Origin: Deltaproteobacteria bacterium
Lineage (GTDB): Bacteria > Myxococcota_A > UBA796 > SXON01
Direction of reading: 5' to 3'
Length of the DNA stretch: 43,438 nt
Assembly: GCA_016875435.1 (NCBI GenBank)
Contig: VGRE01000005.1
Location: 1-43,438 of the forward strand
The notes below the pieces were generated by a model. The model searched no databases. It saw only the letters and a program-made list of their open reading frames with translations, and was not told the DNA's origin. The stretch's first letter is position 1. Each line of letters begins with the position of its first letter. This document shows positions 33,561-43,438 of the stretch, piece after piece. The position numbers and the translations under genes are program-made.

Positions 33561-35228
33561 CTACCGGGTCCCGAGGATCTCCACGTCGAGCACGCCGGCC
33601 AGCGTGTCGCCGCGGGTGGCGCCCGCCTCGCTGAAGCTGAGCGTGCCGTTGCCCAGGTAGGCCACGGTCTGCCACTGGTCGCTCGTGTTGCTGTCGAGGT
33701 ACATGATCACGCCCTCGGCGTCGTGACCGTCGAGCGAGAGCGACGCGCCATCCACGAGGAGTGACTTGTCGAAGACGGCATAGGGGGCCACGTACACTCC
33801 CGGCGCGATCTCGCTGACCGTGAGCCAGATGGCCCGACCATCGTCGATGATACCGGCTGATACACCGTCCTGAGTCGATGGGTACTCGACACCGTCGAAT
33901 AGGTAGTAGGTGTCGGCCTCGCCAGCGGTCCACACGTCGCCATTGGGGTAGCTGCCCCAGGTGGTGCTGAAACTCACCTGGGCCTCGCCGACCGTTTCCC
34001 AGCACACTTCCCCGCGCAGGTCGGCGGCCTCGGCGCCCCGCGCCATGCCGTCGCGCACGTCGTCGGCGCGCAGCTCCACGATCGTGCGCGTGGCCTCGAT
34101 ACCGGTACGCATCGACTTGCCGTCATGCTCGGCCACCAGCTCGGCCCAGGCGTCGATCTGGGCCACCTTCTCGGTGCCATCCCAGGCCGCGTCGAGCTGT
34201 CGCGACAGCTCGGCCTCGTACAGCCCGCGGCCCTCGTCGTGGAGGAAGAGGCGATGGGCGAGCGCGCTGAGGGTGCCCACCCAGGCGTTGGCGCCGTCGT
34301 TGCCCCAGAAGGGCTCGCGCTGGTCGAAGGCGGCGTCGGGGCCGCTGGCGATGAAGCGGAGGCGCCCATCGCCGGGGAGCGCATAGGCGTAGAAGTTGTT
34401 GGTGTTGGCGTTGTAGCCGTCCCAGTGACCGGCGATGGACTCTGCCGCCCAGAACGTGAAGAAGGCGTCGAGGTCGATGACCGCGTCGAGCGCGTCGAGG
34501 AGCGCGCTGTCGCTGGCCTCGAGCGCCTCGGTGACGGCCTCGAGCTCGGCCCCGGTGGTGTCGTCGGTCTCGTACTCGAAGGTCTGGGTCCAGCCCTCGC
34601 GGAAGTCGGAGAGGGTGCCCTCGTACATCGCGGTGGGCCACTCGCCGCTACGCCGCACCACCAGCTCCTCGTCGATGTTCTCGGTGTGGGCGTAGATGCC
34701 CAGGTCTTCGCCGTTGACCACCACGTGGGCCAGCGCGCATCGTGGCGCCACGAGGCCGGCCTCGCTGAACCATTGGTGCGCGAGACAGGTGCGCATGCGG
34801 CTCGGATCCTGGCGGCCGTTGTTGAACACCAGCTTCTCCAGGCCGAAGAATCGCTGGTCGTCGACATACTCGCCCACGTCGATCTTGAGCGAGGGCCGGT
34901 CGGAAACGACCGAGCCGATCAGGCCCTTCTTGCGGACGCCCACCTCGCCCATGGCCTCGCCGTCGAGCCAGGCCTCGCCGGGGAAGTAGGTGTAGGGGCT
35001 GGGCCAGGGCCCATCCATGCACGCCTCGCCCATGAGGTCGTAGTAGGTACGCTCTTGCGCGCGGAGCTCGGCCCAGTCATCGGGGTCGAGCTCGACCACC
35101 AGCTCGTGAAGCGCGCTCACGTCGAAGAGCGCGTCGGCCTCGGCTCCCCCCTGGACCTCGTCGCTGGCCGCGGGCTCGCCGCTGTCGAACGACACGGTCT
35201 GGTCGGCGCAGGCGAGGAGGAGGAGCAT
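33561..35228 (-). CDS. CotH-kinase-like lipoprotein 4
   Basis: 555 residues from the ATG at 35228; signal MLLLLAC with Cys at residue 7. CotH-like blocks are VGVRKKGLIGSV, RPSLKIDVGEYVDD, KLVFNNGRQDPSRMRTCLA, APRCALAHVVVNGEDLGIY and HWDGYNANTNNFYAY. The W-D-x-D site is the most divergent of the four (IASGPDAAF). An extra ~130-residue C-terminal beta-rich domain (from about WETVGEAQVSFSTTWGS) is absent from the other CotH-like proteins here and may bind a ligand or surface. It lies just upstream of the phoD remnant. Confidence 0.8.
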   Translation of the reverse strand: MLLLLACADQTVSFDSGEPAASDEVQGGAEADALFDVSALHELVVELDPDDWAELRAQERTYYDLMGEACMDGPWPSPYTYFPGEAWLDGEAMGEVGVRKKGLIGSVVSDRPSLKIDVGEYVDDQRFFGLEKLVFNNGRQDPSRMRTCLAHQWFSEAGLVAPRCALAHVVVNGEDLGIYAHTENIDEELVVRRSGEWPTAMYEGTLSDFREGWTQTFEYETDDTTGAELEAVTEALEASDSALLDALDAVIDLDAFFTFWAAESIAGHWDGYNANTNNFYAYALPGDGRLRFIASGPDAAFDQREPFWGNDGANAWVGTLSALAHRLFLHDEGRGLYEAELSRQLDAAWDGTEKVAQIDAWAELVAEHDGKSMRTGIEATRTIVELRADDVRDGMARGAEAADLRGEVCWETVGEAQVSFSTTWGSYPNGDVWTAGEADTYYLFDGVEYPSTQDGVSAGIIDDGRAIWLTVSEIAPGVYVAPYAVFDKSLLVDGASLSLDGHDAEGVIMYLDSNTSDQWQTVAYLGNGTLSFSEAGATRGDTLAGVLDVEILGTR

Positions 35229-35235
35229 CGACACG

Positions 35236-35241
35236 AGGGTA
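35236..35241 (-). promoter_or_regulatory. TANNNT box before CotH-like gene 4
   Basis: TACCCT on the minus strand lies 7 bases before the ATG at 35228. No ribosome binding site is visible. The remaining ~180 bases to the RluA-like gene show no gene. Confidence 0.4.
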
Positions 35242-35419
35242 TGACACGCCAGGGGCGGGGGCGTGAAAGGAAATCGTGGGGGCGCTACCGCCCTTGGCGC
35301 GGGCGCCGGCTTCCAAAGCGTGGGTGACCGTGTACCCGGCCATTGGGCCGATCCCCACGGCAGCGCTAGGCCGCGAGTCGAGACCGCGACAATTTTCCGT
35401 CGTGGCTCAAACCCCCGGC

Positions 35420-36214
35420 TCACCGCCCATACGCCCGCCTCCACAGCTCGTCCGGCAACGGCGACACGTATCGCCGTGCATCCCCCTCCGGGTGCCGGAA
35501 CCCGATCACCTGGGCGTGCAACGCGAGCCGAGAAAACCTCGCTCCACCATAGAGATCGTCCCCGAGGATGGGAAACCCCAGGTGAGCGAGGTGCAGCCGC
35601 ACCTGGTGGGTGCGACCGGTTTCCAGCCGGGCCTCGACCACTGATACATCGCCCGATGTATCAGCCACCCGGAAGTGAGTGACAGCGGGCTTTCCCCCGG
35701 CAACCACGCCGCGTCGTCCGTCGCCCTTGCGTCCCAGCGGCGCATCCACGGTCGGCTCCCCCCGGAAACGCCCGCGCACCAGCGCGAGGTAGCGCCGCTC
35801 CACGCTGTGCTCCTCGAGCTGGGCCTTCAGGTCGAGCTGGCAACGCTCATCGCGCGCCACCAGCAACAGCCCCGAGGTGCCCTCGTCGATGCGATGCACC
35901 GGCAGCGCCTGCCCGAGCCACCGCGCCACCTGCGAGAGCACACTCGGCTCGCGTCGCCCCGGCGCGGGCACGCTGAGCAGCCCGGAGGGCTTGTAGACCA
36001 CCGCCAGCCGCGCGTCGTGGGCCACCGCCGCCGCGTCGCGACCGGGCGCGTGCGCGGGCCGCGACGCGAGCACCCGCACCTCGTCCGCCTCCACCTCCCG
36101 CCCCATGTCGGCCACTGGCGTGTGCCCGAGCCACACCCGCCCCTGGCCCGCGAGCTTCCGCGCCTCCCGTAGCTCGTGCCCGCGTTGCCGCAGGACCTCC
36201 CCGAGCGTGGTCAT
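35420..36214 (-). CDS. RluA-family pseudouridine synthase
   Basis: 264 residues from the ATG at 36214. An N-terminal S4 RNA-binding domain (TLGEVLRQRGHELREARKLA) is followed by the catalytic domain with D110 in HRIDEGTSGLLLVAR, VVYKPSGLLSVP, and the C-terminal GRTHQVRLHLAHLGFPILGD. It isomerises uridine to pseudouridine in rRNA or tRNA in the cytoplasm; which site is modified cannot be told. The frame stays open to 36301, but the extra residues do not resemble the family. No leaderless-type box or good ribosome binding site is seen at this start. Confidence 0.9.
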   Translation of the reverse strand: MTTLGEVLRQRGHELREARKLAGQGRVWLGHTPVADMGREVEADEVRVLASRPAHAPGRDAAAVAHDARLAVVYKPSGLLSVPAPGRREPSVLSQVARWLGQALPVHRIDEGTSGLLLVARDERCQLDLKAQLEEHSVERRYLALVRGRFRGEPTVDAPLGRKGDGRRGVVAGGKPAVTHFRVADTSGDVSVVEARLETGRTHQVRLHLAHLGFPILGDDLYGGARFSRLALHAQVIGFRHPEGDARRYVSPLPDELWRRAYGR

Positions 36215-37561: not shown

Positions 37562-40500
37562 GTGAGCCGCGCGGGGCCGGCAGGCGAGGGCCAAGTAGCA
37601 CGCGGGCGCACCCTCGTGGACCGCGGCGGCACCTTCACCGACGTGGTGGTGGAGTCGAAGGATGGGAAGCTCGACGCGAGGAAGGTGCGTTCCGACATGG
37701 CCGTGGTCGGCCGCCTCGCGACGGGGCCGCTCTGCTTCGGCACCACGGTGGTGACCAACGCGCTGCTCGAGGGCAAGGCCGCGCGCGTGCTGCTCGTCGT
37801 GTCGCGGGGCCTCGGCGATCTCCCGGCGCTCGGCGACATGGCGCGCCCCGATCTCTTCGACGCCGACGCTCGCCGTCGTGCATGGCCCGGCCTGCGCGTG
37901 GTGGAGGTGGGGGGACGGATCGACGCCGACGGGTGCGAGGTCGAGCCGCTGGAGATCCCCGCGTTGCCGCTCGACGGCGTCGAGGCGGTGGCGGTGGTGC
38001 TGCACAACGCGCCGCTCAACCCGGCGCACGAGTGCGCCCTGCGCGAGGCCCTGCCCCCGCGTCTCCACGCGGTACTGAGCCACGAGTTGGTTCCCTCGCT
38101 CGGTCTCGTGTCGCGACTTGAAACAACATTGCTCGACGCGGCGGTCGGCCCGGTGCTGCGTGCGGCCCTCGAACGCGACGAGATCCCCGCCGGCGCCCAC
38201 GCCATCCGCTCCGATGCCAGCCTGTGTGCCGCGGCTCGCTTGCGTGCGCCCGACGCGGTGCTGAGCGGCCCGGCCGGCGGGGTGCTCGCGGTGCGTCACG
38301 TGGCCGAGCGGGTGGGGGCTCGACTGGCGGTGGGCCTCGACATGGGCGGCACCTCTACCGACGTGTGCCTGGTGGAGCCGGGCCCGCTGCGCTACCGGGG
38401 GGGCGACTCGGTGGTCGCGGGGCGCCGCTTGCGGAGACCGGCGCTCGACGTGGAGACCATCGCCGCCGGCGGTGGATCCATCCTCGGTCACGACGGCGTG
38501 GCCTACACCGTGGGACCGGCCTCGGCCGGCGCGCACCCCGGGCCGCAGGCCTTCGGCAAGGGCGGGCCGCCCACCCTCACCGACGCCGCGATCGAGCTGG
38601 GCCTCGTGGACCCTGATACATTCGACCCTCCTATCGATGTGTCACGTGTATCACTGCCCGGCCCCGCCGAGGCCTACGTCGACATCGCCCGGGAGAGCAT
38701 GGCCGCCGCCGTTCGCCGACTCGCCCTCGCGCGAGGCGTCGATCTCGAGGGCGCGGTGCTCGTGTCTTACGGCGGCGCTGCGGGCCAGCACGCCTGCGCG
38801 GTGGCCGAGAAGCTCGGCCTCGGGCGCGTGGTGGTACACGCGCTCGCATCGGTGATGAGCGCCTTCGGACAGCGTTTTGCTCGTGCCGAGGAGGAGCGTT
38901 CGCGCCCCCTGTGGCGGCCACTGGCCGAGGCCTGGCCCCGGGTGGTCGCGCTGTGGGACGAGCTCGCGGCGGCGCTGGCCGGCTGGCCCGAGCGCAGCTG
39001 CTGGGTGGAACTACGCTACGCGGGCACGGAGTCGTCGCTGCGGGTGGAGGGCGGCTCGGCGATCGAGGTGGCGCGTGCCTTCGAGGCCGAGCACGCGCGC
39101 CGCTTCGGCTTCGCGCGACCGGAACTGCCGGTGGAGGTGGTCCAGGTTGGCGCGAGGGGCCGGGAGGCTGGACTCCCCGGCGACTACACGGTGGCGTGGC
39201 CGGAGGGTGTCCCCGGGCAGGTGGTGGGCCCCTGCTCGCTCGGGCTGGCCGGCACGACGCTGGTGGTGCCGGCGGGTTGGCGCGGGCGCCGGGACGGCCC
39301 GCTGCTGGTGCTCGATCACCAGCAGCCGCGGCCCCGCGCCGAGGCCACCGACGAGGCCCTGTCGCTCGCGCTGTGGTCCAGCCGTTTCTCGGGCATCGCC
39401 GCCGAGGCGGGCGAGGTGCTCCGGGGTCTCGCGCGGTCGGTGAACATCCGCGAGCGCCTGGACTTCTCGTGCGCGATCTTCGACGAGGCGGGCACGCTGG
39501 TGGCCAACGCCCCCCACGTGCCGGTACACCTCGGCGCGATGGGGGCCACGGTGCGCGACCTCATCGGGAGCGGCCTGCCGCTGCCGGGAGGGGCCTCTTG
39601 GCTCACCAACGACCCGGCGGCGGGGGGCTCGCACCTGCCCGATCTCACCGTGGTCAACCGGGCGGGCCGCTGGTTCGTGGCCTCGCGCGCGCACCACGTC
39701 GACGTGGGCGGGAGCACGCCCGGCTCGATGCCGCCGCGGTCGCGAGCGCTCGCCGACGAGGGGCGGGTATTCCGTCGCGTGCCGCTCCTGGTCGACGGGG
39801 GCTTTCGCTGCCCCGATCTCGCTGGTTGTCGCGACATGGTGACGGTCGAGGCCGACCTCCGGGCGCAGGTGGCCTGCAACCTTCACATGGCCCGGCGCCT
39901 CGCCGACTTCGACCCCGTCGACGTGAGCCAGTGGATGGGCCGGCTGGTGGCGGCGGTGGAGAGGGCGGCGGGCGAGGTCTTGCCCCGCCTCGAGGGCGAG
40001 GCCGCTGACGAGATCGACGGCGTCGTGCTGCGGGTGCGCGTGCGCGGCGCGTGTTTCGACTTCTCGGGCAGCGGCGGTCCTCACGCGGGCAACCTCAACG
40101 CGCCGTCCTGCGTGGTGCGCGCGGCGGTGATCTACGTCCTTCGCTGCTTGCTCGGTCGCGACTTGCCGCTGAACGAGGGGCTGTTGCGCGCGGTGGACAT
40201 ACGGGTGCCGCCCGGCTCCATCCTCGACCCGCCGCCCGGCGCGGCGGTGGTGGGTGGGAACGTGGAGACCTCGCAGCGGCTCGTCGACCTGCTCCTGCGC
40301 GCCACGGGACAGCGCGCCGCGTCGCAAGGGACGATGAACAACCTGAGTCTCGGCGGCGAGGGCTGGGCCTACTACGAGACCCTCGGCGGCGGCCTCGGCG
40401 CCTCCGCGTCTGGACCCGGGGCCAGCGGCCTGCAGGTACACATGACCAACACCCGCGCCACCGACCCGGAGGTGCTCGAGGCGCGCCTGCCGCTGCGCGT

Positions 40501-40789
40501 GCGCAGCTTTCGCCTTCGCCCCGCGAGCGGTGGCGGCGGACTCCACGCCGGCGGCAACGGCGTCGAGCGGGAGATCGAGCTGCTCGCCCCGGCCACGGCG
40601 TCGCTTCTCGCCGCGTGGCGCCCCGGCGGTGCGCCCGGGCTGCAGGGCGGGGGCCCGGGGCTCCCAGGCGAGGCGTGGATCCAGCGCGAGGGCGCGTGGG
40701 CCCGCTGGAACGGCGACACCGTCTCGCTCTCGCCCGGCAGCCGCGTGCGCGTGTCGACCCCGGGCGGCGGCGGCTGGGGCGCGAGCTAA
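37562..40789 (+). CDS. Fused hydantoinase A/B (5-oxoprolinase-like) protein
   Basis: 1075 residues from a GTG start. The N-terminal half is the HyuA/ATPase-type domain ([66 protein letters not shown]). The C-terminal half is the HyuB-type domain (ISREtype [79 protein letters not shown]). The fused order is that of eukaryotic and bacterial 5-oxoprolinases, which open 5-oxoproline with ATP. It is ~200 residues shorter than typical 5-oxoprolinase, mainly early in the HyuA part. Substrate is therefore uncertain; cytoplasmic. Confidence 0.85.
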
Positions 40790-40861: not shown

Positions 40862-42538
40862 TTATTCCCCTATTGGACCTTGGATCGGCCCCGGGTGCGT
40901 GGCGCGGGTGTCCATCTGGCGCAGGCGGCGGGCGAGCAGGGCGGCCAGGAACTGGTAGAAACGCAGCCCAAGACCGTTGTCTCGCTCCGTGAGCGCGAAC
41001 ACGTCCTCGGGCCTCAGGTGAAGCAACTCTCCCTCGTCGGTCCCCACGACGTCCGCGCTGGCGGCCCCCGACTCCAGGAAGCTCATCTCCCCGAAGATCT
41101 GCTCGGCGCCGAGCTCGCCCAGATCCAGCTCCCCCGCGCGCACCCGCACGCGACCCCGCTCCACGAGCCAGAGCCCCGCCCCGCGCGTCCCTTCGCTCAG
41201 CAGCAGCTCACCGGCCTGGAATGGACGTCGCCAGCCTACTTCGCGGATGCGTTCCCGGTCCTCGGGGCCCAGGTAGCGGCGCCAAGCCTCGGAGGAGTTC
41301 TGGGCTTCGGGGGCGGGCACGCAGGCGGCGGTGGACTCCTGCACCCGCTGGTCCATCTGGGCCTCGAAGAGGGCCACGCGGTCGGTGTCCAGGGGGACCA
41401 CACCCCCGGTGGAGGTGTAGCCGGAGGGCTCTTCCCCGGGATCGCCCCGAAGATAGCTGGCGCCCCGGGCCTTGTGGACGAGGCGCCAGTTGCGCAAGGC
41501 GAGCACGCAGGCGTTGAGCTCCCCGACGAGGCGCCCGTCTCCGCTGGCGGCGACGAAGCCCCGCAGCCGGCCGGCCCGCGTGTCGACAACCTCGAGAAAG
41601 TCCTGGTGGACCTTGGGAAGGTAACGCCGACTGTGGCGCACGGATCGGCCCATGGGGCTGGCCGCGGAGACGCCGAGCAGGGCGTCCAGGGCCTGGAGGC
41701 AGCCCACCTGGGGGCCGCTGGCCCCCTCCAGCGGACCCTCTCCCTCGTCCAGGCCCCAGATGGTGGTGGGCTGGATCAGGGTGAGGAATTGCCCCGGGCG
41801 AAGGTGGCCGCGCTGGATGTTGCGCTTGAAAGGCTCCCCCAGGCTGGCCAGGTCCGCGCGCAGGCGCTCGAGCAGGAAGAGCACCCGCAGTCGGTCCCCC
41901 CCGGCGCAGGCGCCGACCAACTCCACGAGGGTGCGCAGGCAGGCGGTGCCCCGCGCCTCCGTCTCCACGCCGGTGGCCAGGAAGGCCGCCAGGGCCTCGT
42001 CGTCGGGCGCCCGCAGCCAGCCCACCGCCGGGCGCAGACGCGCTGCGACCAGCTCCTCCACCTCGTAGGCGCCGCCGGGACGGCCACCGTCAAGCTGGAA
42101 GTTGCACAAGACCATGCTGTTGAGGTTTCCCACCCGGGGATGGCCCCGGTCCCGGCAGAGCGCGCTCCAGAGCCGATCCAGGGCCGGGGGCAGGGCGCAG
42201 CGCGCGCGCTCGTAGTCCTCGCGCCTGGGCGGCGCCCGCCGCCAACGGGCACAATGGGCCAGCACGGAGAGCACCGTCATCAGACGGTCCCGTTCGGGGG
42301 TGTCTAGGGCGTCCCAGGAGGCCCCGCGTAGCGCCTCCCCATCGAAGAGCGCCCAGATCCAGGGCTCCACGTCCCCGTCGCCGTGGTATCGCTCGGGGAG
42401 CTCCGCCACGGCCGCGTCGAGAAGGTCGAAGGGGGGCGGCAGGCGGTGGGCGGGCAGGCGCGCGGGCAGGAAGCCGTTGGGTCCCAGGGCCGCGAAAGCC
42501 GCATCCAGAGCGTTTTCTCGTAAATCTCCGCGTTTCAC
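40862..42538 (-). CDS. Indoleamine-2,3-dioxygenase-like heme domain fused to a cyclic-nucleotide-binding domain
   Basis: 558 residues from the GTG at 42538, with a strong ribosome binding site (GGGGAGGAG) just upstream. Residues ~1-400 follow the IDO fold: NGFLPARLPAHRLPPPF, PQVGCLQALDALLGVS, RRYLPKVHQDFLEVVD, and NWRLVHKARGASYL with H355 at the place of the heme ligand His346 of human IDO1. STGG (376-379) matches the IDO GTGGT loop. The site of human Arg231 seems to be Gln (LIQPTTIWG). Residues ~435-545 form a CRP-type cNMP-binding domain with FGEMSFLE; the phosphate-binding Arg is Ala (AASADV). There is no DNA-binding domain. It may be a ligand-controlled heme oxygenase. Confidence 0.75.
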   Translation of the reverse strand: MKRGDLRENALDAAFAALGPNGFLPARLPAHRLPPPFDLLDAAVAELPERYHGDGDVEPWIWALFDGEALRGASWDALDTPERDRLMTVLSVLAHCARWRRAPPRREDYERARCALPPALDRLWSALCRDRGHPRVGNLNSMVLCNFQLDGGRPGGAYEVEELVAARLRPAVGWLRAPDDEALAAFLATGVETEARGTACLRTLVELVGACAGGDRLRVLFLLERLRADLASLGEPFKRNIQRGHLRPGQFLTLIQPTTIWGLDEGEGPLEGASGPQVGCLQALDALLGVSAASPMGRSVRHSRRYLPKVHQDFLEVVDTRAGRLRGFVAASGDGRLVGELNACVLALRNWRLVHKARGASYLRGDPGEEPSGYTSTGGVVPLDTDRVALFEAQMDQRVQESTAACVPAPEAQNSSEAWRRYLGPEDRERIREVGWRRPFQAGELLLSEGTRGAGLWLVERGRVRVRAGELDLGELGAEQIFGEMSFLESGAASADVVGTDEGELLHLRPEDVFALTERDNGLGLRFYQFLAALLARRLRQMDTRATHPGPIQGPIGE

Positions 42539-43012
42539 GGCCTCTCCTCCCCGTCCGCGCCCCGCGCCGCCCCCCGAAAGCCACGGTATTCGCCGCCCGC
42601 GCCCGCGCCGGTCCGCGCGGGTCCTGATGCTACCGAACGCGGTATTACCCTGGCGCCGTCCCACCCAGCACCCCCGGCCACCGCGCGCAAAACGCCGCCC
42701 GCTGGGCCGAATGGCTCGTGGCGAAGGCAGCTGTCCACAGCTGATAACCGAGGGAGAAATCGCACCATGACCGTATTCGGAGAGAACGCCACCTCGGACA
42801 GCAGGGGGCGCAAGGCGGCGCGGGCTGAAAATCGGGGTCGAGAGCGCCGTACGAGGAGTGGTCGGAGGGCGAGGAGGCTCGGTGGCAGGGCGCGGACCGG
42901 GTCGTTACGGGTACCGTAGGAGGGGGTCATGTTTCCTTTCCTCCCGACGCGCGTGCTGCCGACGAAGCCGACGGCCTGAATGCCCGGGTGGTCGGCGATG
43001 GGGATAGATGGG
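42539..43012. other. 474-base gene-poor stretch between the IDO-like gene and the IS110 transposase
   Basis: No convincing gene. A similar 10-mer occurs at 42583-42592 (ACGGTATTCG) and 42770-42779 (ACCGTATTCG), with a partial copy GCGGTATTAC at 42639-42648. CAGCTG-TCCA-CAGCTG lies at 42728-42743 and a TACGG/CCGTA hairpin at 42906-42918. A 50-codon ATG frame (42767-42919) is very Arg-rich and not trusted. The part nearest the transposase may be the IS110 left end, which in this family can encode a bridge RNA. The element boundary is not visible. Confidence 0.5.
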
Positions 43013-43438
43013 ATGACGCGGCCGGTGCTCCAAGTGGAGCACATCGTTTATCCTGAGACGAGCAATCGCTCAACGGAGTCACCGGCCCTGAACGAGCATA
43101 GCACCTTGACCGTGGGGATCGAGCTGGGGGACCGTCGGTCCACGGCGTGCGTCGACGGGGCCGGGGTCGTTGTCCGCTGGTTCGAGTTCCCGATGACGCC
43201 GGAGGGCGTTCGGGAGGCCCTCACGAACCAGGGCTTCGGGCGGGCGGCGATGGAGGCCGGTGCGCAGTCGGGGTGGGTGACGCGCGAGCTCCGGAAGCTC
43301 GGGTACGAGCCGCTGGTGGCGAACCCGCGGAAGCTGAAGGCGATCAGCGCCAACGAGCGGAAGAGCGACCGGAACGACGCGTTGCTGCTCGCCCGCCTCG
43401 CGGTGGCGGACGCGTCGCTGCTCTACCCGATCCGCCAC
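43013..43438 (+). mobile_element. IS110-family transposase/recombinase, N-terminal part (cut by window end)
   Basis: The frame runs off the right edge. It encodes the DEDD RuvC-like N-terminus of IS110-family recombinases: TVGIELGDRRSTACVDGAG, then AAMEAGAQSGWVTRELRKLG, EPLVANPRKLKAI, and RKSDRNDALLLARLA. Here D, E and the DRND Asp residues are the expected catalytic acids. The start is uncertain: ATG 43013 is the longest, but the conserved part begins at GTG 43112 or TTG 43106. A perfect hairpin, GTGCTCC-AAGT-GGAGCAC (43025-43042), and a -10-like TATCCT (43049-43054) sit between, which favours a later start. These elements move by RNA-guided recombination and lack terminal inverted repeats. 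Confidence 0.85.

Follow-up and report, generated by a model that had tools for sequence, protein, structure and literature searches.

The 43,438-nucleotide stretch of DNA analysed here (the window; contig VGRE01000005.1 of a Deltaproteobacteria bacterium assigned to Myxococcota_A) encodes a 558-residue protein in which an IDO-like heme-dioxygenase domain is fused to a cNMP-binding-type domain (cNBD). The domain architecture is new, and the protein represents a new subfamily within known folds. Because both pockets have lost their textbook arginine, the protein is probably a regulated enzyme, or a sensor, with a target other than plain tryptophan. To our knowledge, IDO enzymes have been known as single-domain enzymes. 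A first, sequence-only reading of the window knew of no described example of the architecture, and the open-access literature that we searched likewise described no IDO fused with either a cNBD or cytochrome b5, an absence that counts as weak evidence. The features on which the argument rests are as follows.

40862..42538, minus strand: whole gene, 558 aa, with a GTG start at 42538 and the stop at 40864-40862
41327..42511, minus strand: IDO-like heme-dioxygenase domain, approximately residues 10-404, from the Pfam IDO match and from AlphaFold plus Foldseek, which lead to IDO1/IDO2
41771..41773, minus strand: Gln256, within the motif FLTLIQPTTIWG, where IDO1 has Arg231 for the substrate carboxylate, from the alignment
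41474..41476, minus strand: His355, at the position of the proximal heme ligand (IDO1 His346), His in 19/19 aligned IDO domains
41402..41413, minus strand: STGG, residues 376-379, equivalent to the GTGG of the JK-loop, from the alignment
40898..41278, minus strand: cNMP-binding-type domain, approximately residues 421-547, from the Pfam cNMP_binding match; a beta-roll and then a long C-terminal helix in the model
41078..41095, minus strand: FGEMSF, residues 482-487, start of the phosphate-binding cassette, from the alignment
41060..41062, minus strand: Ala493, at the position where cNBDs carry the Arg for the cyclic phosphate, from the alignment

Translation of the minus strand gave 558 uninterrupted codons with no internal stop, and the GTG start matches the start region of the homologue in a congener, G322. 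The sequence-only reading had the interval and the single frame right but left the strand unstated. It had also proposed an IDO-type and a CRP-type domain within one protein, and both exceed the curated Pfam cut-offs: residues 20-356 match IDO (PF01231) at 66.8 bits (E 2e-18; cut-off 26 bits) and residues 438-519 match cNMP_binding (PF00027) at 46.8 bits (E 3e-12; cut-off 27.5 bits). A phmmer search of PDB sequences agrees, pairing residues 268-371 with human IDO1/IDO2 and residues 423-544 with CRP/PKG cNBDs, of which the CRP-family regulator 4ev0 was the top match. The NCBIfam matches of the cNBD all fell below cut-off, including a weak one to NF041163 (family 2B encapsulin shell), and a PHROGs search with the protein returned no match. 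An AlphaFold2 model built from a 36-row alignment reached a mean pLDDT of 82.5, and its leading Foldseek matches in the PDB are human IDO1/IDO2 (E ~1e-11, TM 0.73-0.79 normalised by IDO1), so that the fold search called for at the outset returns an IDO fold for the N-terminal domain, as a predicted model. His355 lies in a long helix of this model, residues 335-364; Gln256 and STGG fall in loops of low model confidence, pLDDT being below 50 in residues 255-259, 267-274 and 367-384.

Homologues establish the fusion as a family trait. The protein-query survey of 284 Myxococcota genomes revealed two full-length homologues, in the distant Myxococcota G068 and G038, with 41-43% identity over residues 20-545 and an extra methyltransferase-fold domain. 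The third, in G322, emerged when 379 Myxococcota genomes were surveyed with PF01231; IDO domains are rare among them (19/379). The protein is not a chimera, since the same fusion recurs in these three genomes, which supply the other two-domain proteins that the sequence-only reading had suggested seeking and also dispose of its worry that a frameshift had joined two genes. Another congener, G109, retains only a decayed IDO-cNBD fragment, which matches residues 53-161 of the G322 protein at 53% identity; it lies at L010:1492-1818 and adjoins a convergent RsmE-like frame. Stand-alone members of the same IDO subfamily occur in another family (G484 and G486), with neighbour genes that differ between the two genomes. 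Outside Myxococcota, the analysis covered viral contigs, plasmids and genome contigs, the last with narrow patterns: the genome-contig scan recovered G068 and G038 and nothing else, and neither the viral contigs nor the plasmids yielded a relative. In the IDO tree, the four fusion domains form a clade (support 100/100, stem 1.9) that excludes both the canonical IDOs and the IDO-reductase proteins described below; as two long-branched groups meet in this tree, we claim no sisterhood between them. The protein belongs to a distinct myxobacterial subfamily of IDO-like and probably histidine-ligated heme proteins, which we call the IQP type. When G068 was compared with G038, dN/dS came to ~0.34 in the IDO half (0.188/0.562) and to ~0.20 in the cNBD half (0.153/0.752), both below 1 and thus indicative of purifying selection on both halves.

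Alignment of 19 IDO domains (4 fusions, 10 canonical IDOs, 4 IDO-reductase proteins and 1 divergent IDO) bears out the residue assignments of the sequence-only reading and extends them to the family. The column equating H355 with IDO1 His346 is invariant, and STGG aligns with the GTGG of the IDO JK-loop. The suspected replacement of the substrate Arg by Gln is no quirk of a single sequence: Gln256, which falls in the Arg-Pro motif column of canonical IDOs, is Gln in 6/6 subfamily members (the 4 fusions and the stand-alone G484 and G486 proteins) versus Arg in 10/10 canonical myxobacterial IDOs. Profile alignment to IDO2 backs the register of the Arg231 equivalent, the His and the GTGG. Furthermore, the Phe226 position and the JK-loop Thr-Gly-Gly are conserved, and the column of the distal IDO1 Ser167 holds Gly or Ala. 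The most conserved 11-residue windows of the four fusions are LEGASGPQVG, FLTLIQP-TIWG, VLSVL-H--RW, H355-G365 and Y-STGGVV, all of which we take to line the pocket, on the basis of the alignment with IDO1 and of what is generally known about that enzyme. The conserved pocket, together with the retained heme His and TGG loop, argues for a working heme site. In IDO1, Arg231 contacts the substrate carboxylate (PMC12921851), and its family-wide replacement by Gln speaks against a substrate role for free L-tryptophan. As the profile, predicted fold and proximal His of the IDO family (PF01231) are present and the substrate Arg is absent, we name the protein IDO-like. Ordinary tryptophan catabolism has its own enzyme in these organisms, given that a separate TDO gene lies elsewhere in the window genome and in G322, G068 and G038; in the last two, kynureninase adjoins TDO on the same contig.

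The cNBD shows a parallel departure. FGEMSFLE, seen at the outset as the mark of a CRP-type domain, occupies residues 482-489 and includes the cassette Gly-Glu (G483-E484). Where cNBDs usually read RSA, the phosphate Arg gives way to Ala (Ala493 in the window protein) in 4/4 IDO-cNBD fusions, and most other aligned cNBDs have Arg there; the Arg-to-Ala change suspected at the outset thus holds family-wide. All four fusions nonetheless keep FGE[MV]SF...ASA, that is, the cassette Gly-Glu and the following Ser-Ala. The domain thus has the PF00027 profile and Gly-Glu and lacks the phosphate Arg, for which reason we do not claim cNMP binding. A search for the C-terminal helix-turn-helix of CRP/FNR proteins gave no match, and the protein ends 11 residues past the last cNBD helix. 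No cyclic nucleotide binds to the cNBDs of family 2B encapsulins, whose sites are divergent (PMC12407261), and the Arg-less cNBD of the window protein may likewise bind none.

The relatives of the cNBD suggest a likely ancestry. In G068 and G038 the cNBD is followed by a third domain of class I SAM-methyltransferase fold (model pLDDT 88), which the window protein lacks; SAM motif I looks degenerate by eye, making the enzymatic activity of this tail uncertain. Tail homologues occur in cNBD-tail proteins of ~470-570 aa throughout the order; G058, G214 and G180 have them in membrane adenylate cyclase-cNBD-tail proteins. L073-L100 represent a widespread myxobacterial family of cNBD plus methyltransferase-fold proteins (~480 aa, degenerate SAM motif I), and L006:34-2934 and L009:466-3387 encode a membrane adenylate cyclase with an Arg-less cNBD and methyltransferase-fold tail. 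In the cNBD tree, the four IDO cNBDs group (96/87) with the cNBD-methyltransferase and adenylate cyclase-cNBD-methyltransferase proteins, away from other cNBDs, and by themselves form no well-supported clade. The Arg is present in the majority of cNBD-tail proteins (PRSA, VRSA), with ASA found in the IDO proteins, the cyclases and three other members. Most simply, an IQP-type IDO would have joined an Arg-less cNBD-methyltransferase protein, and the window lineage would later have lost the tail.

Genomic context links the relatives to nucleotide cyclases. In G068, the next frame overlaps the end of the IDO-cNBD-methyltransferase gene by 17 bp and encodes a Ser/Thr kinase, AAA_16, GAF and a class III cyclase; the same kinase-AAA-GAF-cyclase gene lies directly downstream of the fusion homologue in G038. 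By eye, the cyclase of this operon keeps both metal Asp residues and the transition-state Asn and Arg, and has His/Asn at the purine-selecting Lys/Asp positions of adenylate cyclases. No cyclase lies beside the gene in the window or G322 neighbourhoods, and the class III cyclases of the window genome are located elsewhere. The operon evidence therefore comes from one genus (G068 and G038) and reaches the window protein by homology only. The cyclase linkage in relatives and the cyclase-cNBD-methyltransferase sister architecture lend indirect support to the idea of small-ligand control, and purifying selection on the cNBD together with the cyclase-linked relatives argues for a regulatory role of this domain. 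The nearest gene in the window is a hydantoinase A/B fusion (37562-40789, plus strand, 1075 aa, one frame) convergent with the IDO-cNBD gene, and an IS110-family transposase (42980-43438, plus strand) runs past the contig end. The G322 neighbourhood includes a PLP enzyme, a GMC oxidoreductase and PGA_cap; neither neighbourhood suggests a shared pathway. Further along the window, a 627-aa CotH-kinase-domain protein (33561-35444, minus strand) adjoins a pseudouridine synthase.

About half of our confidence goes to a heme aromatic oxygenase with a non-canonical substrate, in which the Arg-less cNBD would have a regulatory role connected with nucleotide-cyclase signalling. The analysis shows the fusion, the predicted folds, the conserved residues and pocket, and the cyclase linkage of relatives; heme binding, oxygenase activity, substrate class, ligand and direction of control are inferred. 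Ferrous heme on His355 would take O2, and the substrate would sit in a pocket formed by residues ~89-99, 251-279 and 372-381, with Gln256 where IDO1 has Arg231. This substrate would most likely be aromatic and probably of indole type, with the alpha-carboxylate absent or masked. A ligand or partner on the cNBD would move the linker helix and the JK-loop and so gate the pocket.

A different division of labour, in which the IDO-like domain senses O2, NO, heme or indole without turnover and the cNBD (plus tail where present) is the output to the kinase/cyclase system, is unlikely, yet a serious contender. The sister architecture carries a signalling domain, adenylate cyclase, N-terminal to its cNBD-methyltransferase module, the next gene in relatives is a kinase-GAF-cyclase, and the distal Ser167 position is Gly or Ala, all of which would suit a sensor; however, conservation is strongest in the substrate-side pocket segments, as would be expected of a particular organic substrate or ligand more than of gas sensing, the stand-alone IQP-type proteins have no output domain at all, and the methyltransferase tail is missing from the window protein. 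We consider it rather more doubtful that the cNBD is a degenerate, ligand-free module for structure or dimerisation beside a constitutive enzyme. Loss of the phosphate Arg in 4/4 fusions, the ligand-free encapsulin cNBDs (PMC12407261) and the recurrence of Arg-less cNBDs in several proteins of the same group all point that way, but the cassette Gly-Glu and Ser-Ala are retained in 4/4, dN/dS is no higher in the cNBD than in the IDO part, and Arg-less cNBDs of this group occur fused to adenylate cyclases.

We regard as quite improbable a cis-signalling heme enzyme, whose IDO-like domain would make a small indole-derived molecule sensed by its own Arg-less cNBD (with the methyltransferase-fold tail in relatives), standing in for the adenylate cyclase of the sister proteins; were it true, an IDO product would be a bacterial second-messenger-like ligand. 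An ordinary tryptophan 2,3-dioxygenase with an incidental cNBD would account for the Pfam IDO score, the IDO1-like fold and the retained JK-loop Thr-Gly-Gly and Phe226 position, and is made very improbable by the uniform Gln in the subfamily versus the uniform Arg in canonical IDOs, by the deep separate clade and by the TDO elsewhere in the same genomes. Nothing beyond a fragmented assembly (544 contigs) speaks for an artefact joining two genes, a notion of negligible probability that the single open frame and the same domain order in three other genomes have already refuted.

Relative to known systems, the window protein resembles IDO1/IDO2 (PF01231) in fold (TM ~0.78), proximal His, JK-loop TGG and distal-helix Glu and Phe, and differs in its ~20% identity, the Gln at Arg231, the Gly/Ala at Ser167 and the fused cNBD. 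The HDAO superfamily shares the histidine-ligated heme fold, of which only the His position is seen here, and divergent substrate pockets; its members PrnB and MarE act on indoles in non-kynurenine ways (PMC11791213). In contrast to the window protein, HDAO members have no described regulatory domain in the literature searched, and PrnB gave no sequence match to the window protein in PDB searches. The beta-roll, FGE cassette and C-terminal helix are those of CRP/PKG-type cNBDs (PF00027), from which Ala at the phosphate Arg and the missing helix-turn-helix set the protein apart. The cNBD insert of family 2B encapsulins is similar in its PF00027 fold, divergent cassette and placement in a non-transcription-factor protein, whereas the window protein has no HK97 shell domain. 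The nearest cNBD relatives, the Myxococcota cNBD-methyltransferase and adenylate cyclase-cNBD-methyltransferase proteins, share their tail with the G068 and G038 homologues; in place of the IDO-like domain, their N-terminus has nothing or a cyclase.

The surveys also uncovered giant Myxococcota proteins (~1270-1840 aa; L057:7729-12624, L058:5058-10100, L059:5219-10204) that combine an IDO-like domain with an FAD/NAD reductase and cytochrome b5 and have an N-terminal gamma-glutamylcyclotransferase-like domain, with the domains of L057 confirmed by Pfam and further matches in G488, G492, G560, G577, G590 and G456. They have Ala at Arg231 and keep the heme His. Cytochrome b5 and its reductase are the proposed electron donor of IDO1, and these proteins are apparently self-sufficient IDO-like heme enzymes. 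A second, separate IDO-cNBD architecture occurs in G220, of the same order (L060:1784-6181, 1466 aa, one frame): IDO-like domain, FAD/NAD reductase and cytochrome b5 are followed by two C-terminal cNMP-binding domains, the first of which keeps the canonical Arg (GEVSLIDGGIRSASA).

Mammalian IDO is controlled transcriptionally or via heme loading. A natural IDO-like protein that contains its own nucleotide-sensor-type domain, and whose relatives are linked to a nucleotide cyclase, could be a first directly allosteric member of the family, and would point to new substrates for heme aromatic oxygenases. A single protein poses two questions: which ligand an Arg-less cNBD recognises, and which substrate is oxidised in an IDO pocket that has lost its carboxylate Arg.
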